DNA of 22,649 bases. Origin: a virus. Below the pieces are notes generated by a model, which did not search any database, had not been told where the DNA came from, and saw only the letters and a program-made list of their open reading frames with translations. The stretch lies in the IMG/VR virus record IMGVR_UViG_3300010392_000141, positions 1 through 22,649 of that record; one strand, 5' to 3'. Made by a program: the position numbers and the translations under genes. Positions 1 through 19,415 of the stretch are shown in pieces (position 1 is the stretch's first letter; each line of letters starts with the position of its first letter).

Positions 1-37
1 ACGCGAACAATACCAGTACCAGCATAAAATATTTCAT
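1..37 (-). CDS. Partial small secreted or membrane protein (N-terminus only)
   Basis: Only the first 12 codons are in the window; they read MKYFMLVLVLFA, a start followed by a run of hydrophobic residues as in a signal peptide or membrane anchor. The start is supported by a strong ribosome binding site (AAAGGGG) about 6 bases upstream. It lies 35 bases after the stop of the preceding gene, so it is probably in the same transcript. The function cannot be told from so short a piece; a small lipoprotein or membrane peptide are both possible. Confidence 0.6.
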   Translation of the reverse strand, partial: MKYFMLVLVLFA

Positions 38-72
38 TACATACCCCTTTCGTTGGTTAAATAGTTACAAAA

Positions 73-252
73 CTATGTTTTCACGTTAATGTAATTCACG
101 CGCGCGTACGGCCGGTCATAGTTGACGGCTTTCCAGCTATTGTTAAGCTGTTCCGCGTGCTTTTTAGCGTGCTTTTTCTTCATGTACGTTTCGACAGTGA
201 ACCATTGCTTTGTCAGCGGACTGAGCCTGCGCTCTACTGTGTAAACTTTCAT
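73..252 (-). CDS. Small basic hypothetical protein, 59 aa
   Basis: The reading frame begins MKVYTVERRLSPLTKQWFTV and ends RVNYINVKT. It is rich in Lys and Arg, with a central stretch MKKKHAKKHAEQLNNSW, and has no membrane segment or cysteine motif. The start overlaps the stop of the upstream gene by ATGA, which suggests translational coupling; an AGGGG ribosome site lies about 10 bases upstream. I do not recognise a family. The basic composition would fit a nucleic acid- or ribosome-binding peptide, but that is a guess from charge alone. Confidence 0.7.
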   Translation of the reverse strand: MKVYTVERRLSPLTKQWFTVETYMKKKHAKKHAEQLNNSWKAVNYDRPYARVNYINVKT

Positions 253-809
253 TTGTGAATAGCCCCTTTCGTTTTCTTTTCGTCAAATAGTACTCCGCAG
301 AATTCCATCGCGACTCGCAGCTGCTGGAAGTCGCCCGCAATGACCCTGTCGGTATCAATGAATGCACCACCGTCGATCTGCTGCCGCTCTCGCATAACAG
401 CGAACCGCCACTTTGCCGCCTTCAGTGCTTCGTTGTAGTCGACCGATCGCTTTGAAACGATCGATGCTGCAACGTCTTCGGGTTTTCGTAGCAAAAATAC
501 ATTGAACGGTGCCAGCGGCTGGAACGCGTTGAAGTACTCGATGCCTGTTTTAACCAACCACGTCTCATTTTGTGGCACGACGCCATACAATTCCTTGAGA
601 AAAGACTCGCTAGGGTCGATCAATTCACAATATGGTAACCCATAATGCCGTTTCTGTAGGTCCCTGACGGCTTCGTTTTCGAAGGTATCATACCCCATCG
701 ATTGAAGTCTTTTTTTGCCCATGTTCACGCCGTGCGCGGCGAAAATGCCGCTAATCATCGACGACCGGCTGCGGGAAGTCATCCACAAACAAATCGGGCT
801 GCGCATCAT
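249..809 (-). CDS. Sulfotransferase-like P-loop protein, 186 aa
   Basis: Residues 11-29 (TSRSRSSMISGIFAAHGVN) match the 5'-phosphosulfate-binding loop region of sulfotransferases, usually written GxPRSGTSMxxGIxxxHGV. The segment YDTFENEAVRDL fits the GYFEN motif that follows in phage members, and FLLRKPEDVAASIVSKR fits the later helix contributing to 3'-phosphate binding. Family members move sulfate from PAPS to a hydroxyl or amine. The P-loop here is degenerate (SRSRSS for PRSGTS), so activity is uncertain. At 186 residues the protein is at the short end of the family. The ribosome site AAAGGTG lies just upstream; ATG at 809 or 806 could start it. It overlaps its upstream neighbour by 4 bases. 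A P-loop kinase is the alternative. Confidence 0.65.
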   Translation of the reverse strand: MMRSPICLWMTSRSRSSMISGIFAAHGVNMGKKRLQSMGYDTFENEAVRDLQKRHYGLPYCELIDPSESFLKELYGVVPQNETWLVKTGIEYFNAFQPLAPFNVFLLRKPEDVAASIVSKRSVDYNEALKAAKWRFAVMRERQQIDGGAFIDTDRVIAGDFQQLRVAMEFCGVLFDEKKTKGAIHK

Positions 810-1081
810 TTGTCACCTTTCTGTCGTTCAACGCTGTTGGTTATCTGGTCGGCCGCTTCTGCAAGCATGGTTTCAATAATGCCCCCCACGTCGCCGGGTG
901 TCAATTGTCGCTTCTGCTTCATTACGGTTGCAATGCGTATCGCCGACAATCCTAACGCGGCAGCGGCGCCCAGAAAATATACTGTTTCGGCAATGTTATA
1001 AAATTCCGGGTCAAGTGCGCGCGGTTCGCTGTTGACGTAATTCATAAACGCTTCAGTGAGATTTGACGTTGTGCTGTTCAT
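806..1081 (-). CDS. Small predicted membrane protein, 91 aa
   Basis: One hydrophobic segment lies at about residues 33-53 (VYFLGAAAALGLSAIRIATVM). It follows a polar N-terminus and precedes a charged region, KQKRQLTPGDVGGIIETMLAEA, that looks helical. The start has a strong ribosome site (GGGAGGTAAAGCA before ATG). It is the first protein gene downstream of the tRNA-like pair and its promoter, and its stop overlaps the sulfotransferase-like gene. I do not recognise a family. It could be a membrane-anchored adaptor; the hydrophobic segment is alanine-rich and only moderately convincing as transmembrane. Confidence 0.7.
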   Translation of the reverse strand: MNSTTSNLTEAFMNYVNSEPRALDPEFYNIAETVYFLGAAAALGLSAIRIATVMKQKRQLTPGDVGGIIETMLAEAADQITNSVERQKGDK

Positions 1082-1106
1082 TGCTTTACCTCCCGGCTAA
1101 AAGGGA

Positions 1107-1194
1107 CCCCGCGGAAGGACTCGAACCTCCATTGCTTCCGTATCGGCGCCCCCTTCAACAGAGCTATAGTGTCGTCGGTTCTTCCTACGCGGGG
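1107..1194 (-). tRNA. tRNA-like gene, class II length, possible Ser(TGA)
   Basis: Seen directly on the minus strand: a perfect 7-bp acceptor stem (CCCCGCG with CGCGGGG) and a T arm (GGAGG, loop TTCGAGT, CCTTC) in the correct register. The total is 88 nt, as for tRNAs with a long variable arm. The best anticodon arm I can build is GCTCT-GTTGAAG-GGGGC: five pairs with two G-U, T33 present, anticodon TGA (Ser). The variable region would contain the short stem CCG/CGG. The D arm does not pair well and lacks the usual GG in the loop, the discriminator is T, and CCA is not encoded. It may be a diverged phage tRNA or a decayed one. The amino-acid call is weak. Confidence 0.5.
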
Positions 1195-1202
1195 AAATTG
1201 GG

Positions 1203-1271
1203 TGCTCGAGGTGGGGTTCGAACCCACATTGACCGTACTATCAGTTCACCCGCCGGCTCACCTACACGAAC
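1203..1271 (-). tRNA. tRNA-like gene, 69 nt, anticodon arm unclear
   Basis: Seen directly on the minus strand: a perfect T arm (GTGGG, loop TTCGAAC, CCCAC) and an acceptor stem GTTCGTG with CTCGAGC (six of seven pairs, one T-T mismatch), discriminator A, no encoded CCA. The start of the D region (TAGGTGAGCCGG) has the usual TA, AG and GG spacing. Only 35 nt separate TA from the T arm, about 4-5 fewer than in a normal tRNA. No proper 5-bp anticodon stem forms; a CTGATAG loop (anticodon GAT) can be drawn but with only three of five pairs. A reduced, degenerate or misread tRNA is likely. It lies 8 bases upstream of the other tRNA-like gene. Confidence 0.4.
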
Positions 1272-1280
1272 AAATTAATT

Positions 1281-1296
1281 GCGCCGTCCTTGGCGC
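1281..1296 (-). promoter_or_regulatory. Leader hairpin ahead of the tRNA-like pair
   Basis: GCGCC and GGCGC form a 5-bp stem around a 6-nt loop in the short leader between the predicted transcription start and the first tRNA-like gene. No T-run follows on the minus strand, so it is not a terminator. It may protect the 5' end or aid processing of the transcript; that role is inference. Confidence 0.35.
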
Positions 1297-1313
1297 GTGC
1301 TGAGAATTAAATA

Positions 1314-1341
1314 AGTGTATCTGTTTCGCGGTGAATGTCAA
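1314..1341 (-). promoter_or_regulatory. Sigma70-type promoter for tRNA-like genes and downstream operon
   Basis: On the minus strand a perfect -35 TTGACA (1336-1341) is followed after 16 bases by TACACT (1314-1319), a good -10. Transcription would start near 1307 and read through both tRNA-like genes into the genes at 1081 and below. The -35 overlaps the end of the preceding small gene. Confidence 0.65.
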
Positions 1342-1574
1342 GCGTTGATAAGTGCGCCGGCCAAGTGCTTCAGGAAGTGATTAACGTTGCCATTCGCGAA
1401 GTCTATCTTGCGGATAACGTTGGCAATCTGTTCCTGCTCACTGCGCGGTGCTGCGTGGATGTGCTCAATAACAACTTCGTTGCTTATCCAGTGGGTAACA
1501 CCGTCGTTGTCATCCAGTTCCCAGTTTTCAAGTGGCAGGTTCTTTTCGTTGAAAAATGTAGTCAAGTAGCGCAT
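1338..1574 (-). CDS. Small hypothetical protein, 78 aa
   Basis: The protein starts MRYLTTFFNEKNLPLENWEL and its C-terminal half (SEQEQIANVIRKIDFANGNV and following) looks amphipathic and helical. There is no membrane segment or metal-binding cysteine pattern. The ribosome site GGGGAAAACAAA before ATG is the same type used across this small-gene array. It is the first gene after promoter-like element copy 1 and the last before the tRNA-like pair. No family recognised; its placement among tiny early-type genes suggests a host-modifying or regulatory role, which is inference. Confidence 0.75.
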   Translation of the reverse strand: MRYLTTFFNEKNLPLENWELDDNDGVTHWISNEVVIEHIHAAPRSEQEQIANVIRKIDFANGNVNHFLKHLAGALINA

Positions 1575-1599
1575 TTTGTTTTCCCCGTCGTTGTGTGCC

Positions 1600-1636
1600 T
1601 GTTATATAGTTTAACGGCAGCGGCGGGAAATCCTTT
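1600..1636 (-). promoter_or_regulatory. 37-nt promoter-like element, copy 1
   Basis: On the minus strand it begins AAAGGATTT, has an 11-base variable centre, and ends in the 20-base block TGCCGTTAAACTATATAACA, which is identical in copy 2. It sits in the gap upstream of the gene starting at 1574 and directly after the stop region of the gene ending at 1665. TATATA can serve as -10, with start about 25 bases before the ribosome site. Copies 2 and 3 keep exactly the same 37-nt length, which argues for a functional unit. Confidence 0.65.
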
Positions 1637-1664
1637 AGGAAAATATACCTGTTTTCCTAAAATT

Positions 1665-1976
1665 TTACGGTTTAAATTCAACGTACAGTTTAAACTGCTC
1701 CCTGTCGATAAGTCCCGCATCGTAAAGGAAAAACAGGTCGACCATGCATTCCGGAATCGATTCTATCCAGTCCGCCTTGCCCATAAGGGTCGTTAAAATC
1801 TCGTTTTCCGCGTCGTTGAATGTCTGGTACAGTCCGTCGGAACTTGTCAGGTTTTGGTGTACGCTGCGGTCTGGCGCGCAGACTTCCACGGCCCATCCGG
1901 GCCCGGCGCTGTGCGTCTTCGTGAATATAGCGCCTTTATTAAGGAACGGCAGGTCTTTTTTCAGCATGTGTTTCAT
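1665..1976 (-). CDS. Hypothetical protein, 103 aa
   Basis: The sequence starts MKHMLKKDLPFLNKGAIFTK, has a Gly/Trp segment (SAGPGWAVEVCAPDRSV) that may form a small beta structure, and an acidic helical C-terminal half ending EQFKLYVEFKP. The start has ribosome site AAGGCGG and overlaps the upstream stop by ATGA. It has no transmembrane segment. No family recognised. It is the last gene before promoter-like element copy 1, so two transcription units probably meet here. Confidence 0.75.
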   Translation of the reverse strand: MKHMLKKDLPFLNKGAIFTKTHSAGPGWAVEVCAPDRSVHQNLTSSDGLYQTFNDAENEILTTLMGKADWIESIPECMVDLFFLYDAGLIDREQFKLYVEFKP

Positions 1977-2215
1977 GGGTTCCGCCTTTTGTCTTCTGCC
2001 CGGCTGATCGCTATAGGAACTTCCGGACTTATGGTGTCAAGGTTCGCTTCAAGGAACTGCCACAGCTGCGAATGCTCTACCGGGTCGCTGTACTGCCCGT
2101 TCCGCATAAGAACCCGTGAACGCGTCCTGTCGTGCGCCTTGAATACTCGCTTATGGCATGGCGGGACGTCGCCCCGTGCAAGCCGTGCTTCAAGCATGCT
2201 CGCTATTTTGCCCAT
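1973..2215 (-). CDS. Small basic hypothetical protein, 80 aa
   Basis: The frame reads MGKIASMLEARLARGDVPPC and continues through an Arg-rich middle (HKRVFKAHDRTRSRVLMRNG) to an acidic helical stretch. The start overlaps the end of the upstream gene by 13 bases and has GGGGACGTTGACGA in front of ATG. The Cys-His pair in PPCHKR alone is not enough to call a zinc site. No family recognised. Confidence 0.7.
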   Translation of the reverse strand: MGKIASMLEARLARGDVPPCHKRVFKAHDRTRSRVLMRNGQYSDPVEHSQLWQFLEANLDTISPEVPIAISRAEDKRRNP

Positions 2216-2544
2216 TCGTCAACGTCCCCTTTTTTCCAAGTCACGCCGCTTTCGTCGGTAAATTCCACGTCGGCAATGACGGTGTATGTTAGGTCGAACC
2301 CGTTGTATTCGTCCGGGTTACCAGAATAAACCGCGCGTTCTTCACGGTCCAACAGACCGGCCATGTGCAGCGTTGCATAGCCGCCAATCGGTGATTCCGA
2401 CGACCACCCGGCACACGGCACCGGTATTTCAATTATAATCTTAGCGAATACGCCAGCCCGATACAACCTGCCGGCGCGAAAAATCGCGTTCCGTGTGTCG
2501 GGCCCCAAATCAACAACAGTTCCGCAAGGTAATATCGCTTTCAT
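2203..2544 (-). CDS. Hypothetical protein, 113 aa
   Basis: It begins MKAILPCGTVVDLGPDTRNA and ends DESGVTWKKGDVDEWAK. The pattern of short hydrophobic strands (KIIIEIPVP, TYTVIADVEF) suggests a compact beta-rich fold, and there is no signal or membrane segment. The start overlaps the upstream stop (ATGAAATGA). No family recognised. It belongs to the overlapping array downstream of promoter-like copies 2 and 3. Confidence 0.75.
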   Translation of the reverse strand: MKAILPCGTVVDLGPDTRNAIFRAGRLYRAGVFAKIIIEIPVPCAGWSSESPIGGYATLHMAGLLDREERAVYSGNPDEYNGFDLTYTVIADVEFTDESGVTWKKGDVDEWAK

Positions 2545-2783
2545 TTCATTTCAACCCTATTGAAATCAAAAACAGGTTTGCACACTGCGCGGCCCCGTCC
2601 CGGGTAGTCCCAATCCTGTTGCAGCTCGATTTCGAACTGCTGGAAGTCACGCGCAACCGCTTGTTTGCATTCCTTCGCTGTTTCGTACACCGCCGCGGCC
2701 GTGAAGATTTCCGGCGCGTCCTTCGGCCCGTCACCGGGCCACGACCAAAGAATAATAATTGCAAACCCCGCTTCGGTTATCAC
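2541..2783 (-). CDS. Hypothetical protein with GTG start, 80 aa
   Basis: The frame stays open upstream to 3038, but I choose the GTG at 2783 because it overlaps the stop of the preceding gene (GTGA) and has GAGG seven bases upstream, as elsewhere in this array. The product begins (M)ITEAGFAIIILWSWPGDG and contains a helical segment VYETAKECKQAVARDFQQFE. It might adopt a small alpha/beta fold. No family recognised. Its RDFQQFE stretch faintly resembles AGDFQQL in the sulfotransferase-like protein, probably by chance. Confidence 0.65.
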   Translation of the reverse strand: MITEAGFAIIILWSWPGDGPKDAPEIFTAAAVYETAKECKQAVARDFQQFEIELQQDWDYPGRGRAVCKPVFDFNRVEMK

Positions 2784-2926
2784 GTCAAATCCTCGATTTG
2801 CTGTTCCAGTTTCGCCAGAAGTGCGTCGAACAGTGCAAATTCCGCCTGCGCTTCCGCAATGATCGTATACACTGGCCGATGGTCGGGCGTACGTTCTTCC
2901 TGCCGTGTGTGCGGTATGAATTCCAT
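2780..2926 (-). CDS. Very small hypothetical protein, 48 aa
   Basis: The predicted product begins MEFIPHTRQEERTPDHRPVY and ends in a helix with heptad-like spacing (LFDALLAKLEQQIEDLT), which could dimerise. The ATG at 2926 is preferred over an upstream in-frame ATG at 2977 because it forms a TAATG junction with the preceding stop and has AGGGCGG upstream. It overlaps both neighbours. No family recognised; the short length leaves doubt. Confidence 0.6.
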   Translation of the reverse strand: MEFIPHTRQEERTPDHRPVYTIIAEAQAEFALFDALLAKLEQQIEDLT

Positions 2927-3174
2927 TACGCCGCCCTGACAATGTGCAAATAGTCTTCGTGCATAACCTTTTGCCATTTCTTCGACCGGTACGGGTCAAC
3001 GATCGAAATTGGCGTGCCGTCTTCGGCAACCAAAACATAACCCGTGTGGTTGTGGTAACCCCACGCGGCAGCGATTTTCAGCGCGTCAAGGTACGCCGAC
3101 TTTTTGGTGTCGCGGTGCCCTTCGGCTTCGAATGATTCCACGGTAACACAGTTCTGTTCGATCGTAAATTTCAT
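2926..3174 (-). CDS. Hypothetical protein, 82 aa
   Basis: It starts MKFTIEQNCVTVESFEAEGH, then a helical part (SAYLDALKIAAAWGYHN) and a strand-like VLVAEDGTPISIVDP. A fold with beta strands flanking a helix is likely. The ribosome site GAGGG is about 8 bases before ATG, and the start overlaps the upstream stop by ATGA. There is no membrane segment. No family recognised. Confidence 0.75.
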   Translation of the reverse strand: MKFTIEQNCVTVESFEAEGHRDTKKSAYLDALKIAAAWGYHNHTGYVLVAEDGTPISIVDPYRSKKWQKVMHEDYLHIVRAA

Positions 3175-3341
3175 GTTGCAACCCTCAAATCGGAAATTGT
3201 GTACGGAACGTTCAGCGACTTTGTGACGATGTCGGCCCAGTCGGCGGCGCCTGCGAAATCGACGAAATTCATTCGTTCATCAATTATGAACCCTTCGAAA
3301 ATTCCGCCGGTCATGTGCTTTTTGAATGCGACTGTTACCAT
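3171..3341 (-). CDS. Very small hypothetical protein, 56 aa
   Basis: The product begins MVTVAFKKHMTGGIFEGFII and ends NVPYTISDLRVAT. It has a GGIFEGFIIDERMNF strand-turn-strand pattern and a helix FAGAADWADIVTKSL. The start has GGGAG ahead of it and a TAATG junction with the upstream gene; the stop overlaps the next ATG. The tight coupling on both sides is the main evidence that it is real. No family recognised. Confidence 0.7.
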   Translation of the reverse strand: MVTVAFKKHMTGGIFEGFIIDERMNFVDFAGAADWADIVTKSLNVPYTISDLRVAT

Positions 3342-3526
3342 TATTTTGACTCCCGGTTGCGCAGTTCCATTGCAGCGTAATGAACTTCGTCAGCGTAGAA
3401 GCCGGCATTTTCGCCGTGCGGCATGGCTTCCATGGCTTCGCGTGCGTCCGTGGCAATGAACCGCAGTTCTGCAACCGTCTTGCGCTTCAGGTTTTTCTGA
3501 TATTCTGCATGGTTCATTGTTTTCAT
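3341..3526 (-). CDS. Small conserved-type phage protein, 61 aa
   Basis: Residues 12-60, from LKRKTVAELRFIATDAREAM to EVHYAAMELRNR, form two predicted helices of a type I recall from small proteins in unrelated phages and prophages, with a Gly-Tyr or Gly-Phe before YADEVHYxAMEL. No biochemical function is known to me. AAGGGG lies about 8 bases before ATG, with promoter-like element copy 3 immediately upstream. It overlaps both neighbours (ATGA and TAATG). Confidence 0.8.
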   Translation of the reverse strand: MKTMNHAEYQKNLKRKTVAELRFIATDAREAMEAMPHGENAGFYADEVHYAAMELRNRESK

Positions 3527-3873
3527 GGTGTGCCCCTTGTGTTGTTACTAAGGTTATCGGCGTCCGTGCCAAAACCTTTAACTATTTTTTCCGCTTCCCA
3601 AACGCCGTCATTATACCCAACAATTACAACGTTCCAGCGCTTAACAGCTTCGTGTAAACTCTTGTAAAAATAGCCAAAACCCGTTAGAGGACAAACAGCC
3701 CACCAGCCGCCATGTGATTCAGCGAATTGAATACTTCCAAGCGGTATACCAGCATCGGAATATTTTTCCAGCTCGTTTAACCGGTCCATAATTTCAAATT
3801 CTACCGGTCTACGATCACGTTCTAGCAGCGAACTAATTAACGCTGATCCTCTATTGTATGCTGCTACACCCAT
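3523..3873 (-). CDS. Hypothetical phage protein, 116 aa
   Basis: The N-terminus MGVAAYNRGSALISSLLERD is of a type I associate with small phage or plasmid proteins that begin with an AYNRGS motif; function unknown. The middle (IQFAESHGGWWAVCPLTGFG) followed by FYKSLHEAVKRWNV suggests a strand-helix unit. The ribosome site AAGGGG overlaps the upstream stop. The last 20 codons overlap promoter-like element copy 3, so part of its coding constraint may be regulatory. Confidence 0.75.
   Translation of the reverse strand: MGVAAYNRGSALISSLLERDRRPVEFEIMDRLNELEKYSDAGIPLGSIQFAESHGGWWAVCPLTGFGYFYKSLHEAVKRWNVVIVGYNDGVWEAEKIVKGFGTDADNLSNNTRGTP
3543..3579 (-). promoter_or_regulatory. 37-nt promoter-like element, copy 3 (diverged, intragenic)
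   Basis: On the minus strand it starts AAAGGTTTT, then a variable centre, then CCGATAACCTTAGTAACA, matching the other copies in length and outer blocks but with TTAGTA where they have TATATA. It lies inside the 3' end of the gene above and 16 bases ahead of the next ATG, followed by CAAGGGG. It may be a weaker promoter or a relic of the duplication that also carried the ribosome site. Confidence 0.45.
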
Positions 3874-3883
3874 GTTTTTCCCC

Positions 3884-4054
3884 TTATTTCCAGACCGTGA
3901 TTTTTTCGCGGTTGTCGAATGCGACCATTGTTACAGCGATGTTGCTGGTCATCGTTCCTTCGGTGCTTACAACTTCCCAGTCGCGGTTTAAGAAAACAAC
4001 CCGAACACCGGTTTTGATTTCGCTTGCAAAGGTTGATTCAAAAATTTTAATCAT
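3884..4054 (-). CDS. Very small hypothetical protein, 56 aa
   Basis: It reads MIKIFESTFASEIKTGVRVV to DNREKITVWK and looks like a small all-beta protein. The ribosome site AGGGGAAACAAG before ATG is strong, and promoter-like element copy 2 lies directly upstream, making this the first gene of the array. It ends 10 bases before the next gene, with AAGGGG spanning the stop. No membrane segment and no family recognised. Confidence 0.7.
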   Translation of the reverse strand: MIKIFESTFASEIKTGVRVVFLNRDWEVVSTEGTMTSNIAVTMVAFDNREKITVWK

Positions 4055-4070
4055 CTTGTTTCCCCTGTGT

Positions 4071-4107
4071 TGTTATATAGTTTAACGGCACGCCCCGGGA
4101 AACCTTT
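4071..4107 (-). promoter_or_regulatory. 37-nt promoter-like element, copy 2
   Basis: On the minus strand AAAGGTTTC, an 11-base centre, then TGCCGTTAAACTATATAACA, the last block identical to copy 1. TTTCCC and TATATA are 17 bases apart and could be read as -35 and -10. It is placed upstream of the small-gene array starting at 4054. No gene for a phage RNA polymerase or sigma factor is visible in the window, so which polymerase uses it is unknown. Confidence 0.65.
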
Positions 4108-4183
4108 AATCTTTTTTCACAACTCTGTAAATATTTTGCAATCGGTGCCAGCGGCCGTTGACCCAGTCTTTTGACACGTTCAT
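4106..4183 (-). CDS. Possible 25-aa peptide
   Basis: ATG at 4183 opens a short frame, MNVSKDWVNGRWHRLQNIYR and five more residues, basic and Trp-rich, ending where promoter-like copy 2 begins. GCGGGGAA is immediately before ATG, closer than ideal. It lies in the otherwise gene-free gap 4108-4244 after the methyltransferase gene. Basic composition and position favour a real peptide, but the length makes chance likely. Confidence 0.3.
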   Translation of the reverse strand: MNVSKDWVNGRWHRLQNIYRVVKKD

Positions 4184-4200
4184 TTCCCCGCTGTGTACAT

Positions 4201-4244
4201 TATTAATGGACAGCGGCCGTCCGTGGCTAAGCTTTATTTACGAT
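4201..4244. other. Gap with a short palindrome and repeated ACGGCCGCTG
   Basis: Between the methyltransferase stop and the possible 25-aa peptide lies GGAC-GGCCGCT-GTCC, a 4-bp stem hairpin, and the decamer ACGGCCGCTG occurs here and again inside the peptide frame at about 4150. No T-run follows, so I do not call a terminator. No other structure is seen. Confidence 0.3.
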
Positions 4245-4754
4245 TTATTTTTGGTTTATAGGATACACAAGGACGTTATATTCAGTCGGCGACACGCTGA
4301 CGCATTCGATACGTTCGAAAAATTCCGATAATGCTTTATTCCACCATTTAGCGTCTCTAATTATCAAATGCGCGTTCCTACCGTCCTTCAGTGATTTGTT
4401 TGCCCGGCGCGTGCTGATATTCAGGAACGCCACGGTTCCGGTCAGTTCGGCAATGTGCCGCAACACGGAACGCAGGTTTTTCGGTTCGACGTGTTCCAGA
4501 ACATCGGTAGACACAACGATATTTGCAGGGAGTGGAATAACCGGGAACGTGGCCGGGTCATACTGCTGGATTGGGAACGGCAGTGTTTCGGCCAGTTTCC
4601 CCTTTCCGGCGCCGTAATCGAGTACGTCGGTCGTGTCGTGTTCCTTACACAGTTCCAGCGTCTGCTCTGTCCAGCGTGCCCCGGCGCAGCCGAATCCCGC
4701 CTTGTCGCGGTGTAATTGCTTGTTTAATTGAATATAACTATTTGAAATTAACAT
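4245..4754 (-). CDS. Class I SAM-dependent methyltransferase-like protein, 169 aa
   Basis: Motif I is LDYGAGKGK (residues 45-53), the SAM-binding glycine loop. An acidic turn YDP (65-67) follows, then STDVLEHVEP (82-91), the motif IV/post-I segment typical of small-molecule or RNA/protein methyltransferases (Methyltransf_11/23 type). There is no NPPY or PC motif, so a DNA base methylase is unlikely. The length is a bare Rossmann domain, with no target-recognition domain. GAGAGGG precedes the ATG at 4754; a GTG one codon upstream is possible. It overlaps the helicase stop and ends the replication operon. Substrate unknown. Confidence 0.8.
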   Translation of the reverse strand: MLISNSYIQLNKQLHRDKAGFGCAGARWTEQTLELCKEHDTTDVLDYGAGKGKLAETLPFPIQQYDPATFPVIPLPANIVVSTDVLEHVEPKNLRSVLRHIAELTGTVAFLNISTRRANKSLKDGRNAHLIIRDAKWWNKALSEFFERIECVSVSPTEYNVLVYPINQK

Positions 4755-6325
4755 CACACAGCCCTCTCATTGAATGTTGGGAATTTGTATCGACTCTCAC
4801 CTTGAGCGTCGCAGATGTACAGGTTTTCCTTCGTCCGACTTGCCCCGACATAGAAAACGCGGTGTTCTTCGTCCCGGTATTTCGTCCCCCGGTTGAATAT
4901 TTTGGCCGTCTGTCTTGCCATATCCGGCAACAAAAGCACGTTATCGGCTTCCCCGCCCTTTACCCCGTGAATAGTCGACAGCGTAACGCGCGGATTCAGC
5001 AAGCTTTCGCCGTTTTCGCGCACTCGGCGGTAATAGGCGCGCTTTTTTTCCGGGATTTTATAGAGCGTATCCCACCAGTTCGCTGAAATGTCAGCCAGCA
5101 AACCGAATTCGTCCCGCAGTTCGTCGTAACACAGCACGGCGTCGTCCGCCAGATCGGCAACGCGGATTTTCGCGCCGTACGCAACGTGTTTCTTGGTCGT
5201 CAGAACGTCGTATAGCTGTTTTACGCGGCCGCCGGCTACGCACTCACCCTTTGCCAGCGCTGCCCACGCGTGAATCGCCCCCATGTCGTCAGGTTTGATT
5301 ATATCGTAATCGCTGCGCTTGATCGGAACGCCTTTGTTAATCAGCCACGTTTGCGCCGACTTTAAAAACGCGTTATTACGTGACAACACCATCCAATCGC
5401 CGCCTTCCAGTATCGGCGCTTCACCCAGTTTTTTCACGTTCGTAACAATTCCTTCCCCTTCGCGGTGTGTCCACTGCTTTTCGTACCGTTCGGTAATTTT
5501 TCCAGCAATCCAGTTCGCCAACATCCACGGCCGGCGCGGCAGGCGCCACGACTTCGACAGCACCCGGCGTTCGCCTTCAAGGTTCAGGAACTGCCCAACG
5601 TCGGCCCCGTTCCACTGGTAAATAGCTTGATCGTCGTCGCCGGCGATATACAGTTCCTTGACGCCGGAAAACATGTGGTTGACGAAATCCCACTGCGTCG
5701 CCGTCAGGTCCTGCGCTTCGTCGATAATGGCAATGTCAACGTCAAGTGGTGGATATTCAAGCTTTACGGGGTCAATTATCAGGTCGGTGAAATCACGCAG
5801 ACCGAACGTTTGCTTGTAGGCGTTCAGCTCGGCCGCCAGCGCTTTGAATTCCTTGCCGCTGCGCCCTACACTGTAATACAGTGCGTCAAGTGGTAGCGAC
5901 AACAGGTATTCGCCAAGTGGCAGCTTCATGTTTCTAGCCACGTCGACCATACTTAACAAGTGGTTGCCAACGTTGACGTTGCGCTGTTCTGTGCTTGTCC
6001 AGTTGGTTTTCTGCCCGGTAAGGTTCTGCAACCCGATCCGGTCGCCGATTTCCTTGTAGTTTTCCGCGTGCATGAAGTCGTCATTTTTCAATGACATAAC
6101 CCGCGCCGCCAACGAATGCAGCGTGCGGAAATATGGGAAATCTTCCGCCGTGTGGTCGAACCGATCCATTGCACGGCCGCGCGCTTCGTATGCCGCCTTT
6201 TGTGTGAACGACACGTACGCGATTTTTTCCGGCGGCACACCGCGCGTCAGGCATTCGTCGACGATATCAAGTAACGACGTCGTTTTGCCTGTGCCCGGCG
6301 GTCCCAGTATTAACTGCCGCTTCAA
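4754..6325 (-). CDS. UvrD/Rep-type superfamily 1 DNA helicase, 523 aa
   Basis: All main SF1A motifs are visible: Walker A GPPGTGKT (8-15), motif II DEAQD (202-206), motif III GDDDQAIYQWNGAD (229-242), motif IV around SKSWRLPR (257-264), motif V IHGVKGGEADNV (452-463) and motif VI YVGASRTKENLY (492-503). It should be an ATP-driven 3'-5' ssDNA translocase. At 523 residues it is shorter than cellular UvrD (about 720), as in other phage versions. Its start overlaps the stop of the primase gene by ATGA. With no hexameric replicative helicase in the window, it may help unwinding at forks or in recombination. Confidence 0.92.
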   Translation of the reverse strand: MKRQLILGPPGTGKTTSLLDIVDECLTRGVPPEKIAYVSFTQKAAYEARGRAMDRFDHTAEDFPYFRTLHSLAARVMSLKNDDFMHAENYKEIGDRIGLQNLTGQKTNWTSTEQRNVNVGNHLLSMVDVARNMKLPLGEYLLSLPLDALYYSVGRSGKEFKALAAELNAYKQTFGLRDFTDLIIDPVKLEYPPLDVDIAIIDEAQDLTATQWDFVNHMFSGVKELYIAGDDDQAIYQWNGADVGQFLNLEGERRVLSKSWRLPRRPWMLANWIAGKITERYEKQWTHREGEGIVTNVKKLGEAPILEGGDWMVLSRNNAFLKSAQTWLINKGVPIKRSDYDIIKPDDMGAIHAWAALAKGECVAGGRVKQLYDVLTTKKHVAYGAKIRVADLADDAVLCYDELRDEFGLLADISANWWDTLYKIPEKKRAYYRRVRENGESLLNPRVTLSTIHGVKGGEADNVLLLPDMARQTAKIFNRGTKYRDEEHRVFYVGASRTKENLYICDAQGESRYKFPTFNERAV

Positions 6326-7884
6326 AACTCCAGCCTGTCGGCGTAATCGTTGTCAGACGCGACCTTTCCTGTGCGTATGAACGATTCCGGAACAACCCAG
6401 TAGTTCAACTTGCGGTTGCCGGTCGCCGTGGTGCTTTTCTTTTCAAGCCCAAGGTTGCGCAACTGATTCCACAGCACGTTTGCGACCTTGACCGGGTACC
6501 TGTGTTGCTGTAAATACTTCGAAAAGTGTTCGAAATGAAACAGATACGACCCGTTTTCGAATAGCACCATTCCGCCCAGTATGTCGACGCGTGATTGCGC
6601 TTCCGGCGCCACTTCAATGTAGTCTTTCAGGAACGCGCCAAGGCTGGCCGTTTCGGTCAGTTCGTATGGTATTTCGACAACTTCGTGATTCATCAACCAG
6701 TGTTGAATCATTTGGTCCCACATGTTGTTGTTCATTCGCGGCGGCATTTTATCGAGTTTTTCAAACACCTTTTCGCGGAATTTCACATTGCTGGTCAGTT
6801 CGGGCCGCGAAAATTGGACGTCCCGGCCGTTGATCGAAATAATGTACCGCGGCGGTTCGTCCATCTGTTCGCCGGCTGCGTTCACCTGCACAAGCTTGCG
6901 TATCCCTTCAATGTTCCAATCGTCCCACACCTGCACAAGTGCGCCCATAACGCCGAATTCGCGGGTTTGGCACAACGGCTTGTTGCACACTTCCGCGCAC
7001 ACCGGTTCTTTGCATAGATAGCCGTACTCTTTGTCGCCGGCAAGCGACTTGAATATTGTTGCCTGAACTTCCTTGAACGGCAGCGACGGGCTGAAGTATT
7101 CGCCGTTCCATTCAAGCACTTTTTCTTCCCAGTCTTCGCCGTGCTTTTTCTTCGCGAACACTGCGAACTGAAACAGCGCTTTGTTGCGCTCACCGTCGCC
7201 GACTCCGGATGTGGCCATTTGCTGAATGCAAGGTGGCGCGTCTGAAAATGGTATATCCTGACTGACGACTTTCTGCGCTTCGAAATCTTCGGGCAGAACG
7301 CGCTTGCTTTCCGCGTAGTCAAGGAACGCTTCAAAGTCCGCAATCGGCTGGCTGTCGTCGTCGAATGCGTACCGCGCGGTGTATTTCGCGTTGAAGTACG
7401 GCAGGTTTATCCAGTTGCCGACTTGCCCCTTTTCAAGTTTTTCTTGTTTCGGGAATATTTCGATTTTCGGGTACCCAAGCGTTCGCGCCAGATCGCCAAG
7501 CTTTTTGCGCACGGGTCCCGCGTCCATCGGTTCGGCAAAGAACATATACAGATGTGCGCCGCCTGATTTGGATTTGCACCAAACGAACGGAAAGCCGGAT
7601 TTTTTCGCGTCGGTAACGAACCGCTTAACCGCGAATTCATCGTACACGTCGAAGTCGACGGCCGCGAAATTACACGTGCCTTCGTCGGTTATCGGCACAA
7701 TGCCAATGCCGTATTCGCCCGACAAGTGGGCTCCCCAGTGCTCCCGGGTCACTTCGCCTTCAACGGTCTTTGCGCTGCCTTCAACCTTGTTGTCGCGCGC
7801 TCGAGGGTCGCCTTTTTCGCGGAATTCGCCGTGCGCCCTGTCAAGGCCTGAAAATAATTTGCTTATTCGTTCGATATTATCCAT
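6322..7884 (-). CDS. Archaeo-eukaryotic-type primase (TOTE-like), 520 aa
   Basis: The catalytic core shows VDFDVYD (Asp77 and Asp79, metal ligands), SGGAHLYMFF (His111, nucleotide binding) and EIFPKQ (Glu142, third acidic residue), the three AEP motifs in the TOTE-conflict style with its FPKQ tail. Further on, residues 229-280 (GDGERNKALFQFAVFAKKKH onward) fit a primase C-terminal helical domain. Cysteines 291, 296, 300 and 305 form a likely metal site. The C-terminal 200 residues are not recognised. It should make primers for DNA synthesis, perhaps also acting as polymerase. It begins just after a terminator-like hairpin and overlaps the helicase gene. Confidence 0.88.
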   Translation of the reverse strand: MDNIERISKLFSGLDRAHGEFREKGDPRARDNKVEGSAKTVEGEVTREHWGAHLSGEYGIGIVPITDEGTCNFAAVDFDVYDEFAVKRFVTDAKKSGFPFVWCKSKSGGAHLYMFFAEPMDAGPVRKKLGDLARTLGYPKIEIFPKQEKLEKGQVGNWINLPYFNAKYTARYAFDDDSQPIADFEAFLDYAESKRVLPEDFEAQKVVSQDIPFSDAPPCIQQMATSGVGDGERNKALFQFAVFAKKKHGEDWEEKVLEWNGEYFSPSLPFKEVQATIFKSLAGDKEYGYLCKEPVCAEVCNKPLCQTREFGVMGALVQVWDDWNIEGIRKLVQVNAAGEQMDEPPRYIISINGRDVQFSRPELTSNVKFREKVFEKLDKMPPRMNNNMWDQMIQHWLMNHEVVEIPYELTETASLGAFLKDYIEVAPEAQSRVDILGGMVLFENGSYLFHFEHFSKYLQQHRYPVKVANVLWNQLRNLGLEKKSTTATGNRKLNYWVVPESFIRTGKVASDNDYADRLEF

Positions 7885-7896
7885 GATTCACCGGTT

Positions 7897-7926
7897 AAAA
7901 AATGCGGCCCGGGTTACCCCGGGCGC
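7897..7926 (-). terminator. Rho-independent terminator after the ssDNA-binding gene
   Basis: On the minus strand GCCCGGG-GTAA-CCCGGGC forms a perfect 7-bp GC stem with a tetraloop, followed four bases later by TTTTTT. It sits between the abundant-type ssDNA-binding gene and the primase gene, so it probably lowers expression of the primase and helicase relative to the binding protein. Confidence 0.75.
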
Positions 7927-7961
7927 ACTATTATGTAGCGAAAAGAACAACTTTGGTACCG

Positions 7962-8765
7962 TTAGAATTCGGTACCTTCGCCGCCGTGGTACGCTTCTAC
8001 GGCCTCTTCGTCCGCATCAACCAGCGTGTCGACGGCTTCCTTAACTTCGCCGGCACGAATTTGACCTTGGAATTCAACAGCAGCGTCGAATAACGCTTGA
8101 TCCTGCACCAAACCGCTGAATTTCAGGTCCCAGCCCCACCACGAATTGTCGTCCTTGCTTTCGCCTTCAACACCGACTTTGTACATAAGCGCGGACGTTG
8201 GCACGCCTTTTGCTTTGCGCTTCAGGTTAATGTCGGAATTCAACCGCTTGCTTTTCTTCAACTGCGAACGCTCCATGGTCAGCGCCAGCGGTTCAAACGA
8301 ACCGTCGTCGTGTACCAGCATCACATAATGATACCGGGTATCCGAAATCTGGTTGCCGTTTGGCAGGATATCGCGGTTAGTGTCGTCGCGCGTGGCCTGC
8401 TTCACCAGTTCAGCGCCTTCAATCGGCGAATGCTCGGCCACGTAACCGCCGCCCTCTTCGCGTGTCTTCCATTCCATGAACGCCCGGCGATAGTATACCG
8501 GCACAATGTACAAGTCTTCCGCGGTCGTGTCGACAAATTCCTGCGAAACGGTGTTGAATATCATGCCCTCTTCGGCGCCCTTGATATACTTGCCGTTCGA
8601 CTTGGAAGCTTGCGGCGACAACCCTTGCAGGATACGCAGGAAGGGGATTGCGAACGCTTCACCGTCGGCCTGTTCCAGCCCCGCGTCTTCGAAATCTGCG
8701 TACTTGTTGTCGTTCAGGAATGCGGGCAGTGTTTCGCCCTTTTTGGCTATTGCTTTCGTCGTCAT
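7962..8765 (-). CDS. Probable single-stranded DNA-binding protein, 267 aa
   Basis: I place the start at ATG 8765 (MTTKAIAKKGETLP) because AAAGGTG lies six bases before it; an in-frame ATG at 8780 lacks this. The protein has a mixed beta-rich core (FAIPFLRILQGLSPQ, GMIFNTVSQEFVD, DLYIVPVYYR) and an acidic tail, DADEEAVEAYHGGEGTEF, ending in Phe. An acidic tail with terminal Phe is a hallmark of phage T7 gp2.5-type and bacterial SSB proteins. I recall this family next to phage primases and recombination genes. It has its own promoter, leader palindrome and terminator, as expected for a highly made protein. The function is inferred from tail and context. Confidence 0.65.
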   Translation of the reverse strand: MTTKAIAKKGETLPAFLNDNKYADFEDAGLEQADGEAFAIPFLRILQGLSPQASKSNGKYIKGAEEGMIFNTVSQEFVDTTAEDLYIVPVYYRRAFMEWKTREEGGGYVAEHSPIEGAELVKQATRDDTNRDILPNGNQISDTRYHYVMLVHDDGSFEPLALTMERSQLKKSKRLNSDINLKRKAKGVPTSALMYKVGVEGESKDDNSWWGWDLKFSGLVQDQALFDAAVEFQGQIRAGEVKEAVDTLVDADEEAVEAYHGGEGTEF

Positions 8766-8785
8766 TTTAGCACCTTTCATCGTTT

Positions 8786-8809
8786 ATGGGCGTTGGATGC
8801 CGCGCCCAT
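8786..8809. promoter_or_regulatory. Palindrome in the ssDNA-binding gene leader
   Basis: ATGGGCG and CGCCCAT form a perfect 7-bp inverted repeat around a 10-base spacer, between the promoter and the ribosome site. In RNA it makes a hairpin that could control translation, as seen in autoregulated ssDNA-binding protein genes; in DNA it could be an operator. There is no T-run. Confidence 0.45.
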
Positions 8810-8822
8810 GTCGGCATTTTTA

Positions 8823-8851
8823 ACAGTAACCGTTTATCGGCTTCCTGTCAA
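8823..8851 (-). promoter_or_regulatory. Sigma70-type promoter for the ssDNA-binding gene
   Basis: Minus strand TTGACA (8846-8851), a 17-base spacer and TACTGT (8823-8828). The -35 starts two bases after the stop codon of the upstream gene. Start would be near 8816, giving a leader of about 50 nt. Confidence 0.65.
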
Positions 8852-8852
8852 A

Positions 8853-9419
8853 TCACTTTTTCTTCCGTGGTAATGTGACTTTAGCCACAGAAAACCGAAA
8901 TACACTAATGATTTCTTCCGGTATTGCCTGTTCCGGGTCCTCGACTTCAAGCTGCCGTTTCGCCCACGCGTTCAGCGTGCCGGCGTGTATCGCTTCCTTG
9001 ACCGAATAAGGCAGGTCCTGTTCTTCGGCATAGTCGATCGCTTCCTGCTTGGCGTCGTCTTGCCCGGTACCGAATGAAAACAGAACGTCGTTCTTGATAA
9101 TGTCGCCGTGGCCATGTTCCCGCAGCCAGTCATACGCCGGATTCTTGTTCTCCGCCTTGATGTTGCAATTAAGGTCGTCTTTAACCGAAATTTTGGCGCC
9201 GTTCGACAGCGTAAATTCGGACAGACCGACTTGTTTCATTGCTTCCGGCAACGCTTCAGTGCGCATTTGCAGGTACGCGGCCTTCAGGTCCTGCACGTTT
9301 CTTTCGGCGTCCTTTATCCGTTGTTCAAGGTCAACTTGCTGTTCGGCCAATTCTGCGATTGTTGACAGTTCGCCTTCGTTCGGCAGTTCGGCCTTTTTGC
9401 CTGCTGAATAATCTACCAT
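8853..9419 (-). CDS. Conserved phage replication-region protein with coiled coil, 188 aa
   Basis: Residues 15-60 (TIAELAEQQVDLEQRIKDAE and on) have coiled-coil character. Then follows FTLSNGAKISVKDDLNCNI, a strand region, and DWLREHGHGDIIKND. A Lys-rich end (PRKKK) closes the protein. I recall similar proteins beside phage helicase and SSB genes, without a proven function; a DNA-metabolism accessory or structural adaptor is plausible. The start has AGGAG upstream, spanning the previous stop. It is the last gene of the helicase operon before the ssDNA-binding promoter. Confidence 0.75.
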   Translation of the reverse strand: MVDYSAGKKAELPNEGELSTIAELAEQQVDLEQRIKDAERNVQDLKAAYLQMRTEALPEAMKQVGLSEFTLSNGAKISVKDDLNCNIKAENKNPAYDWLREHGHGDIIKNDVLFSFGTGQDDAKQEAIDYAEEQDLPYSVKEAIHAGTLNAWAKRQLEVEDPEQAIPEEIISVFRFSVAKVTLPRKKK

Positions 9420-9425
9420 TTCTAT

Positions 9426-9770
9426 TTAACTCCTGATATCAAAAGAAAGCTTGATGTATTCCCTCCGGGTTCTGTCCCAGCGAAGAACGTTGAACTTTCC
9501 GCGGTTAATTTCTGACGCCAGCGCCAATGATAACCCGATCGCCGCCGGGTCCCCAATGCACAAAATGCAATCTTCGTCGCTGTAATCCTTCAGCAATCTT
9601 CGTACTTCGTGAACGTCGTGCTGTGTCAGGTATGAAACCCCATTGTGCGGAAACATTGGTGCCGTGATATCGCCAAAAAGTGAAGCTGACGAAATATCGT
9701 GGATATTCACGCGCCGGCCCTTTTCTTGATCGTAGCGTGAAGGTTGTTGCACTAGGTAAACTTTCGGCAT
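9426..9770 (-). CDS. Conserved hypothetical replication-region protein, 114 aa
   Basis: It reads MPKVYLVQQPSRYDQEKGRR, then FGDITAPMFPHN and a segment DEDCILCIGDPAAIGLSLAL with a glycine-containing turn, resembling a small alpha/beta fold. I recall similar short proteins next to SNF2-type helicases in phages, always uncharacterised. The start has TTTAAGGA about 9 bases upstream overlapping the helicase stop, so translation is likely coupled. Confidence 0.75.
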   Translation of the reverse strand: MPKVYLVQQPSRYDQEKGRRVNIHDISSASLFGDITAPMFPHNGVSYLTQHDVHEVRRLLKDYSDEDCILCIGDPAAIGLSLALASEINRGKFNVLRWDRTRREYIKLSFDIRS

Positions 9771-9780
9771 TCTAATTTCC

Positions 9781-11247
9781 TTAAAGCCATGACGTCGGGT
9801 CGTCTTGCATAATGACGTCCGATATGCTCTTTTTGGTCCGCCGTGCGGTTATAATTTTCGTGTCGATCGTCTTTTCCGCTTCTAAATCTACATAAGTCAC
9901 CTTGTCAGTTTGCCCTATACGGTGCGCCCTGTCCTCGCTTTGTAATCTCGCTTCCAATGAAAAGTCATTGCTGTAGTATATTACAGTCTTTGCCTGTGTG
10001 AGTGTCAAGCCATAACCGCCGGAATGCTGCTGTCCGACGAAGAAAAGGCATGTGTCGTCGTTCTGAAAACGGTCAACGTTCACTTCGCGGTCGTGCTTAT
10101 CGACGCCGCCGTGGTACTGTACAACAGATTTGCGGCCATATTCCTTCATAAGCGTGTCGCTGATCGCCTGAAGTTCGGCACGGAACCGGGCCCAAATAAT
10201 AAGTTTACCGTCTGGCAACGCCTCTTCGACGACGTCGGCAAGTGCTGCCAAACGGTTGTTCGGCCCCGGTATAGGTACCGCGGGCGCGTACTCTTCCGCC
10301 GGTATGAACCCGCCCAGAACCTGCTGTAATCGCAACAGCTTCGTCAGAACGTTGGCAACGCTGATTTCTTCCCCATGCGTCAGTTCATACAAGCTCTTTG
10401 ACTTGATGTCGTTGTATAGCTTCGCCTGTTCGGTACTCACCGGTACCAGACGCCGCTCAAAAATCTTGTCCGGCAGGTCCAGACATTCGTCTTTCGTCAC
10501 GCGGTAGCTTACCGCTTGAATTTTCCGCGTCAGTTCGTCCATGTTCTTGTAGCATACAAGCGAGTCGTAATGCTTGTTCGTCTTGCGGTTCAATTCCCGC
10601 TTCCATTCAGCATACCGATGTTTGAAACTGTAAAAATTGTCGAACCCAAGGTATTTCGTACCAAGGAAGCCCATTTGCGCGAAGGCGTCAAGCGGCCCGT
10701 TCGTAATCAGGGTTCCGGTCATGATCCGGCGGAACGCTGCGCGCTTGCCAAGGGTCGTCAGGGTTTTTGTGCGCTTGGCGCCCGGCGTCTTTATCTTGCT
10801 TGATTCGTCGACACAGATAATTGTCGGGAATGCGTTCACCAACTGGGCAAGGAACTTGGCCGCTTTGCCGGTCATACCACTGCCGAACGCTTCGATATTC
10901 ATTGCCACGACGCGCAGCCCGGGCCCTTCGTCCCACAGTTTTTCGATTTCCTTTTTCTCGGCCGCCTTCATGGTCGACGCCCAGACCGCCGCGCGGTACC
11001 GGGTCCATTCCGGCATATGCGCCGGCACTTCGCGCAGAATCCAATTGCGGTGCACGCCGTTTGGCGCAATGACTACCAAACACCGGACCTTGTCGCGCGC
11101 CCACAACCACGCCGCGGTATCGCAACCAACCTTCGACTTGCCCGTACCCATGCCCATTAAAAACGCAAAGTCGGTATCATCCCGGCTCAGTTTAAAGACT
11201 TTGTCTTGATGGTCAAAGGGTTTAGTCTTGTAATCGTAATCAAGCAT
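9781..11247 (-). CDS. SNF2-type superfamily 2 helicase/ATPase, 488 aa
   Basis: Walker A is MGMGTGKSK (31-39), motif Ia region VVIAPNGV, motif II VDESS (146-150; a DESS variant of DEAH), motif III MTGTLITNGP (176-185), motif V GYGLTLTQA (about 411-419) and motif VI QSEDRAHRIGQ (436-446). The RAHRIGQ motif is typical of SNF2/RapA translocases. These proteins move on dsDNA using ATP and remodel protein-DNA complexes; in phages they sit in replication or recombination modules. It is the first gene of the left replication operon, driven from 11282-11309. There is no nuclease domain attached. Confidence 0.92.
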   Translation of the reverse strand: MLDYDYKTKPFDHQDKVFKLSRDDTDFAFLMGMGTGKSKVGCDTAAWLWARDKVRCLVVIAPNGVHRNWILREVPAHMPEWTRYRAAVWASTMKAAEKKEIEKLWDEGPGLRVVAMNIEAFGSGMTGKAAKFLAQLVNAFPTIICVDESSKIKTPGAKRTKTLTTLGKRAAFRRIMTGTLITNGPLDAFAQMGFLGTKYLGFDNFYSFKHRYAEWKRELNRKTNKHYDSLVCYKNMDELTRKIQAVSYRVTKDECLDLPDKIFERRLVPVSTEQAKLYNDIKSKSLYELTHGEEISVANVLTKLLRLQQVLGGFIPAEEYAPAVPIPGPNNRLAALADVVEEALPDGKLIIWARFRAELQAISDTLMKEYGRKSVVQYHGGVDKHDREVNVDRFQNDDTCLFFVGQQHSGGYGLTLTQAKTVIYYSNDFSLEARLQSEDRAHRIGQTDKVTYVDLEAEKTIDTKIITARRTKKSISDVIMQDDPTSWL

Positions 11248-11281
11248 TCTGTCGCTTCCCGCGTCTGTTTCGTTGTTCAGT

Positions 11282-11309
11282 ATCTTACCGCGCGGCCGTT
11301 AACTGTCAA
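11282..11309 (-). promoter_or_regulatory. Sigma70-type promoter for the replication operon
   Basis: Minus strand TTGACA (11304-11309), 16 bases, TAAGAT (11282-11287), 35 bases before the helicase ATG. The left copy of the 23-bp inverted repeat ends 7 bases upstream of the -35, where an activator or UP-like element would act. Confidence 0.65.
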
Positions 11310-11315
11310 CCACGC

Positions 11316-11338
11316 AAACTTCCCTATAAGAGAAATAC
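11316..11338 (+). repeat. 23-bp inverted repeat, left copy
   Basis: AAACTTCCCTATAA followed by GAGAAATAC. It matches the reverse complement of 11575-11597 at 22 of 23 positions. Read on the minus strand its end is TTATAGGGAAG, reminiscent of the core of T7-family promoters (CTATAGGGAG). It sits just upstream of the replication promoter. Confidence 0.85.
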
Positions 11339-11342
11339 CTAC

Positions 11343-11517
11343 TATACCACCCCTTTTTCATTTTGTCTCAAAAAACCCGATACCCATATTGCAAGCGTGG
11401 TTGAAGAGTAGAGTCATGCCAATTTTGTATACCATGTATACCATAGTCTAGTATTTGCTTGGTATACAGTTCGGCGTTGATTTATAAGGGGAAACAGGTC
11501 AATATACCAGTATACCA
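11343..11517. repeat. Cluster of six TATACCA/TGGTATA sites (iteron-like)
   Basis: TATACCA occurs at 11343-11349; TGTATACCA twice in tandem at 11426-11434 and 11435-11443; the inverted form TGGTATACA at 11460-11468; and ATATACCA then GTATACCA in tandem at 11502-11509 and 11510-11517. The two tandem pairs have 9- and 8-bp periods. The core GTATAC is itself palindromic. Such arrays bind an initiator or a dimeric repressor. No candidate binder is obvious in the window. Confidence 0.75.
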
Positions 11518-11574
11518 TACCCTAGAGAAAATTAAGGGTCATTTTGGGGACTTCAATTTTTTGCCTAGTATATA

Positions 11575-11597
11575 GTATTTCTATTATAGGGAAGTTT
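11575..11597 (-). repeat. 23-bp inverted repeat, right copy
   Basis: The minus strand reads AAACTTCCCTATAA then TAGAAATAC, one mismatch from the left copy. It contains a perfect TATAAT and follows the terminator T-run directly. A -35 at the right distance is not evident, so it need not be a promoter. Confidence 0.85.
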
Positions 11598-11598
11598 T

Positions 11599-11622
11599 AA
11601 AAAGCCCAGCCCGCCCGGCTGG
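11599..11622 (-). terminator. Rho-independent terminator after the spanin gene
   Basis: On the minus strand CCAGCC-GGGCG-GGCTGG forms a perfect 6-bp stem, followed by GC and TTTTT (11599-11603). It lies about 30 bases after the Rz1-like gene and would end the late transcript before the control region. Confidence 0.8.
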
Positions 11623-11649
11623 AAGCGTACCGATTTGGCGGACTGGGAA

Positions 11650-11970
11650 TCACTCGGCTTTGATCCATTCCCGAAGCGCTTCATGTTTGCGCTTGCAGTC
11701 ATGGTATGCTGCTATGTCGTCTAAATGTGCCGACAGGATCAACGACACGGCGTCAGACACGCCAATTTCAGGGAGGTTATCTGGCAGCACGGACAGCGGT
11801 CCGCAGTCTGAAAACGCTTCTACGGGCTTCTGGCGTGTCAGGTCGTCACTGACTAGCCGGCTGGTCGTTCCACAACCAGCTAAACAAAACGCTGTAAATA
11901 TAAAACAGCACCTTTTAACGTGTCGATATTGTCTTTTAATTGTCCTATTCCTCGATTGCACGGGCCACAC
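11650..11970 (-). CDS. Outer-membrane spanin lipoprotein (Rz1-like), 106 aa
   Basis: After a basic start (KRQYRHVKR) come a hydrophobic stretch and the lipobox CLAGC, with Cys33 as the lipidated residue, giving a mature chain of about 74 residues. The C-terminal part ends in a helix HDCKRKHEALREWIKAE, similar to Rz1-like proteins in which a Cys-rich helix follows. The o-spanin binds the i-spanin across the periplasm and fuses the two membranes at the end of lysis. The start is GTG at 11970 with AAGGGG 7 bases upstream. Its first 91 bases overlap the end of the HNH frame, while the i-spanin gene lies beyond that gene. Confidence 0.75.
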   Translation of the reverse strand: MWPVQSRNRTIKRQYRHVKRCCFIFTAFCLAGCGTTSRLVSDDLTRQKPVEAFSDCGPLSVLPDNLPEIGVSDAVSLILSAHLDDIAAYHDCKRKHEALREWIKAE

Positions 11971-12643: not shown

Positions 12644-12652
12644 TAAACGCCT

Positions 12653-13192: not shown

Positions 13193-13215
13193 TTTAGTTC
13201 CCCATATTTCCTTGT

Positions 13216-15230: not shown

Positions 15231-15247
15231 AGAAACCCCTTAGCTGC

Positions 15248-15713: not shown

Positions 15714-15727
15714 GTACAACCACATGT

Positions 15728-16267: not shown

Positions 16268-16269
16268 TT

Positions 16270-19410: not shown

Positions 19411-19415
19411 GCGCG

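Follow-up and report, generated by a model that had tools for sequence, protein, structure and literature searches.

The window analysed here is a 22,649-base virus record (IMGVR_UViG_3300010392_000141, positions 1-22,649). Nearly all of its genes are on the minus strand; they encode tail proteins, an endolysin, a T5 A1-like protein, helicases, a primase and a methyltransferase, followed by small genes. The subject of this work is an element that is repeated three times among these small genes and resembles flagellar promoters of bacteria. The original prediction of three promoter-like 37-mers, identical in length and direction and with two contact blocks at fixed spacing, was borne out: the copies, found at 1600-1636, 3543-3579 and 4071-4107, are equally long, share the minus strand and have an 11-nucleotide (nt) spacer of variable sequence between the blocks. 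One extra upstream T belongs to each copy, which gives TAAAG(G)(T/A)T-N11-GCCG(T/A)TAA, and this base is important for identifying the element. The predicted promoter P1 (4071-4108, minus) consists of the -35 block TAAAGGTT (4108-4101), the 11-nt spacer, the -10 block GCCGTTAA (4089-4082) and the start-region block ACTATATAACA. P2 (3543-3580, minus) has the same -35 block, N11, the -10 block GCCGATAA and the start-region block CCTTAGTAACA, and P3 (1600-1637, minus) combines the -35 block TAAAGGAT and N11 with the -10 and start-region blocks of P1. A 20-base block, TGCCGTTAAACTATATAACA, is identical in the copies at 1600 and 4071 (two occurrences versus none in 100 shuffles), and not in those at 1600 and 3543 as had been claimed; TATATA is present in two copies and missing from that at 3543. 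The ribosome-site GGGG follows the element after approximately 13 nt in P3, 6 nt in P2 and 5 nt in P1, rather than the 10-30 bases given originally, and the distances to the ATG are 25 nt (P3, ATG at 1574), 16 nt (P2) and 16 nt (P1, ATG at 4054).

P1 sits in a 190-nt gap between a methyltransferase-like gene (4245-4757, minus), which ends the DNA-metabolism run, and the first small gene. Analysis of this gap for a terminator ahead of P1 gave a folding z-score of -0.77, which is not notable. Two open reading frames (ORFs) without a family match lie behind P1, at 3884-4054 (minus, 56 amino acids (aa)) and 3523-3873 (minus, 116 aa), and P2 is located within the 3' end of the second. P2 precedes a 61-aa ORF (3341-3526, minus) and a run of overlapping or abutting small ORFs at 1665-3341 (minus; 56, 82, 65, 80, 113, 80 and 103 aa), which are grouped on the basis of gene spacing. 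P3 lies in a 90-nt gap before a 78-aa ORF (1338-1574, minus) of PHROG 6004, a family of unknown function. The structural and DNA-metabolism genes of the window have no such sites, save for a weak and unconserved one at 8860.

Comparison with the promoter recognized by the flagellar sigma factor sigma-28 (FliA/RpoF), for which Table 1 of PMC2859248 lists the consensus TAAAGTTT-n11-GCCGATAA, revealed one mismatch in 16 positions for P2, two for P1 and three for P3, with the 11-nt spacing exact in all three. Thirty shuffles of the window yielded no site at ≤2 mismatches and an average of 0.17 sites per shuffle with exactly three. An independent matrix constructed from the 18 E. coli FliA sites tabulated in PMC4183435 ranked P2 first (23.7), P1 second (17.5) and P3 third (14.8) in the window. 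On 100 shuffles the best site scored 12.6 on average and never more than 20.6, the corresponding values for the third-best being 9.7 and 13.6, thus indicating that the three-copy set is significant and that P2 is strong alone. In the same table, the E. coli fliC promoter has TAAAGGTT as its -35 block, exactly as in P1 and P2. More generally, the window copies share TAAAG..T, the 11-nt spacer and GCCG(A/T)TAA with class III/IV flagellar promoters (E. coli fliC, tar and flgM; Marinobacter fliC), but unlike these bacterial promoters they precede small phage genes and not motility genes. A fourth sigma-28-like site, with three mismatches, was observed at 8860-8834 (minus) in the gap before ORF 7962-8780, where it overlaps TTGACA-N17-TACTGT; no comparable site is listed at the matching position in L004, a close relative of the window.

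Recurrence of the element in relatives, which the original prediction had proposed as a check, was confirmed. L004 is approximately 80% identical to the window in DNA over most of the common stretch and lacks both genes behind P1; its element lies directly before its copy of ORF 3341-3526 (17346, plus strand), and a second, weaker one precedes another small gene. These two sites rank first and second in L004 with the matrix drawn from the tabulated E. coli sites, and both contain the TAAAG core that is common to the three window copies. Two further relatives, G210 and G211, were reached through a scan for the GTTAA form of the element. G211 (IMGVR_UViG_3300010413_000025; 67,191 bases), which a 144-base exact direct terminal repeat marks as complete by that criterion, is a useful reference genome for the window's group; it is collinear with the window at protein identities of approximately 32-72% per aligned segment, most of them 42-72%. 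At ≤2 mismatches G211 contains ten sites and G210 nine, as against none for a reversed-pattern control, and every one of these sites precedes a ribosome site and start codon, in G211 those of small genes. In G211 the orthologue of ORF 3341-3526 (62.7% identity across 59 residues) is preceded by a site at 43780 (minus), and sites of both G210 and G211 also occupy the gap behind the methyltransferase-like gene. The conserved positions are those of the -35, -10 and start-region blocks, the spacer being variable, and the block TAAGTAACA after the -10 recurs in G211 even though it lay outside the search pattern.

One genome from each of 84,980 bacterial and archaeal species was searched for the extended element TAAAGNTT-N11-GCCGWTAA-N5-GTAACA, which turned up in eight places. 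In seven of these the next gene, as assigned with Pfam, belongs to the flagellar or chemotaxis system: flagellin in Marinobacter persicus, M. koreensis, M. santoriniensis and a Granulicella metagenome-assembled genome, FlgM in Methylobacillus, FlaG in Gallionella and a chemotaxis receptor in Kluyvera. The eighth place lies before a large unrelated protein. Since the element precedes bacterial flagellar and chemotaxis genes, and no sigma gene was found with TIGR02937 in the complete G211, the description of this promoter as phage-specific is not supported. The three places with GTTAA are all in Marinobacter, and two of the three window copies likewise have GTTAA in place of GATAA. Among the 15 sites listed at ≤1 mismatch in the three Marinobacter genomes, ten have the -10 block GCCGTTAA of P1 and P3; the genes behind these sites include fliC, flgM, fliD, fliS and a PAS-domain (Aer-like) receptor (named by eye, except for the Pfam-tested flagellins), and some of the 15 sites precede nothing flagellar. 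The M. persicus flagellin promoter, GCCGTTAAACCTAGTAACA, which also carries the start-point block, differs by one base from GCCGATAAACCTAGTAACA of L004. The promoter variant suggests a Marinobacter-like host, which is a guess from sequence. The window proteins match many phages at <60% identity, which does not fix the host; 80 loci were returned for helicase relatives at 34-38% identity, a search of genome contigs with the helicase found nothing, and the nearest cultured phages gave no DNA match to the window.

Searches for a dedicated reader of these promoters returned no sigma gene in the window, here a 22.6-kilobase (kb) fragment, or in L004 (PF04545, PF04542 and TIGR02937), nor in G210 and the complete G211 (TIGR02937 model only). 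Pfam analysis of ten G211 ORFs identified DNA polymerase, helicase and terminase but no RNA polymerase, and FlgM-like genes were found in none of 13 records, a set that included the window and not G210 or G211. In view of these negative searches, the sigma-28 of the host is the simplest reader, and we consider it very probable that the three copies are sigma-28 promoters that wire clusters of small phage genes to the flagellar sigma factor of the host. A mechanism is proposed where the host sigma-28 RNA polymerase would bind TAAAG(G/T)TT and GCCG(T/A)TAA across the 11-nt spacer, with initiation close to the conserved TA(A/T)GTAACA-like block. P1 would then direct transcription of 3884-4054 and 3523-3873, P2 that of 3341-3526 through 1665-1976, and P3 that of 1338-1574. 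We infer recognition by a host rather than a phage sigma factor, as well as transcription itself and its start point, from these comparisons.

Several observations weigh against this assignment. The best shuffled site scored 20.6, so neither P1 nor P3 is significant singly, and P3 is a weak match, mismatched at three of 16 positions and scoring close to the lowest of the E. coli sites. Because a 2-mismatch pattern was used to pick the G211 sites, part of the conservation of their -35 and -10 blocks reflects selection, and a more distant relative (L005/G002) is without any site. A 114-aa helix-turn-helix protein of G211 gave a weak Sigma70_r4 match (24.8 bits; cut-off 24.1). Comparison of window positions 1-20000 with 124 genomes of the genus of Marinobacter koreensis produced weak matches only, in 12 genomes, and there was no array of clustered regularly interspaced short palindromic repeats around the three of these 12 that were checked. 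The small size of the window and a sigma-70-like site upstream of ORF 3341-3526 also count on this side, and are taken up below with the alternatives that they would favour.

It is unlikely that these promoters are served by a sigma factor or RNA polymerase of the phage itself, whether one convergent on the sigma-28 class or one captured from it. Such a factor could have escaped notice in a record that is a fragment, a sigma-70-family protein is encoded by the phage G046 with its 38 sites (see below), and the conserved start-point block exceeds the textbook sigma-28 consensus; however, ten sites occur in the complete G211 without any TIGR02937 match, and the start-point block is also that of a bacterial flagellin promoter. 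Promoters of T7-like single-subunit polymerases consist of one contiguous conserved block of about 20 base pairs, a form that the two blocks with their variable 11-nt spacer do not fit. Classic early phage promoters mimic the main sigma-70 promoter of the host; there too phage genes are read by an unmodified host holoenzyme, but with the main sigma factor instead of the alternative, flagellar one to which the window points. That the copies are ordinary sigma-70 promoters, with their -10 in TATATA or TAAACT, is highly improbable. TATATA is present in two copies and a 9-of-12 sigma-70-like site lies upstream of ORF 3341-3526, but the copy at 3543 has no TATATA, none of the nine sigma-70-like sites (TTGACA and TATAAT 16-18 nt apart) found in 1-9500 (6.9 expected) coincides with any of the three elements, and the best sigma-70 scores upstream of the genes starting at 1574, 3526 and 4054 are 7, 9 and 7 of 12, versus 13, 15 and 14 of 16 for sigma-28. 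The original reading of TATATA as the -10 is not upheld: if the copies are read as sigma-28 promoters, the -10 is GCCG(T/A)TAA, and TATATA falls at or just before the start point. An exact 18-mer scan of viral contigs gave six chance-like stretches without the -35 block and was discarded. Homologues of the 78-aa gene in other phages mostly have TTGACA-N17-TATAAT-like sites: of their 17 distinct upstream regions, a few of which are mutually close, 13 contain a sigma-70-like site of at least 10 of 12, and no sigma-28 site at ≤3 mismatches was found at any of 20 homologue loci. This kind of gene would thus be under a different host sigma factor in the lineage of the window.

The sites, which are multi-copy in several phages, could also serve chiefly as decoys that sequester the flagellar sigma factor and so switch motility off. 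We regard this as very unlikely, because all ten G211 sites and all three window sites lie immediately ahead of a ribosome site and start codon and in the same direction, an arrangement that decoys do not need; titration of sigma-28 could still be a side effect of promoters. If recombination between gene cassettes had spread the element as a repeated linker that plays no part in transcription, this would account for the identical 20-mer at 1600 and 4071, for the different genes between the methyltransferase and ORF 3341-3526 in the window and L004, and for the recurrence of similar spacer sequences in unrelated phages. This explanation is barely credible, given that the identical bases cluster in the -35, -10 and start-region blocks and not in the variable spacer, and that bacterial flagellar genes carry an element of the same layout. 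A working promoter cassette that spread in this way is compatible with recognition by host sigma-28.

A scan of viral contigs gave 64 stretches with the pattern TAAAGGTT-N11-GCCGATAA versus 33 with the reversed pattern, a control that applies to the GATAA form. With copies removed the counts are 52 and 20 sites, of which 14 and 2 lie clear of long frames and are followed by a ribosome site and start. The GTTAA form gave 49 stretches, of which 47 were examined, and most single matches of both scans, which lie inside long open frames, are probably due to chance. Arrays were counted in the records of 47 of the 64 loci together with L004 and L005, the 17 omitted being L065 (the L004 contig) and 16 that mostly seem to be copies. 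At ≤2 mismatches, this revealed 38 sites in G046, 11 in G073 (within the first 8.4 kb), eight in G050 and six each in G043 and G037; 33 control-selected records contained three such sites, in two records. The 38 sites of G046 (IMGVR_UViG_3300020048_000048; 120.6 kb; L043, L132, L137 and L139) are on both strands, with none for the reversed control, and its 260-aa sigma-70-family protein scores 40.6 bits against TIGR02937, slightly short of the 42.9 cut-off. The whole programme of G046 looks as if it runs on the flagellar promoter code. In G073 (IMGVR_UViG_3300031886_000010; L135, 76-8397) all 11 sites are on the plus strand, mostly just before ORF starts and mostly with a GGTAT/TCAT-like block that is conserved downstream of the -10; no sigma gene was found with PF04545, PF04542 or TIGR02937 in this record, which may be incomplete. 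Three or four sigma-28-type sites each were also observed in G075 (L226), G049 (L227 and L228)/G216 (L240) and G057 (L231), some with the TA(A/T)GTAACA block or spacer resembling those of L004, and G075, G049 and G057 have no tblastx similarity to the window.

Phages usually use the main sigma factor of the host or bring their own, and some encode a sigma factor with dedicated middle or late promoters (T4 gp55, SPO1 gp28). These systems are likewise multi-site promoter regulons apart from sigma-70, but in contrast to them no sigma gene was found in the complete G211, and the sequence is that of the host flagellar consensus. Sigma-28 becomes free once FlgM has been exported, in motile cells. 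Because of this biology, the small genes of the window would likely be on only in motile cells, and part of the phage programme probably runs only where the flagellar regulator is active. If so, infection would depend, through a phage regulon controlled by the flagellar sigma factor, on motility and surface state, both variable between cells, and there would be a direct, testable link from host physiology to phage gene expression; the promoter variant would also serve as a clue to the host that needs neither a spacer nor an isolate. More tentatively, with the chances somewhat below even, several phage lineages might independently have wired part of their programme to the host flagellar checkpoint (hook completed, FlgM exported), such that the phage reads the motility state. 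The sites may at the same time draw sigma-28 away from flagellin synthesis, and in some lineages, such as G046, a phage sigma factor might have taken over the promoter code genome-wide. No account of sigma-28 promoter sets in phages was found in the open PMC literature, a scope that leaves subscription papers mostly outside. PMC13418256 describes TldR/FliCP prophages and a FliA-dependent inverted promoter near csrA-tldR; in that case the phage regulates or replaces flagellin. Phage-borne genes are likewise tied there to the flagellar regulatory circuit, but that system, as described, acts on flagellin, and the window promoters instead on unrelated small phage genes.

Beyond the promoters, a tRNA-like stretch was detected at 1203-1271 (minus), below the Rfam gathering score (25 of 29 bits) and without an ARAGORN call, and a second T-arm-like stretch was spotted by eye near 1110-1190. 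The T5 A1-like protein is a 512-aa product of 13692-15230 (minus) and belongs to the T5 A1/DNA transfer family (phrog_1745, E 7.7e-147).

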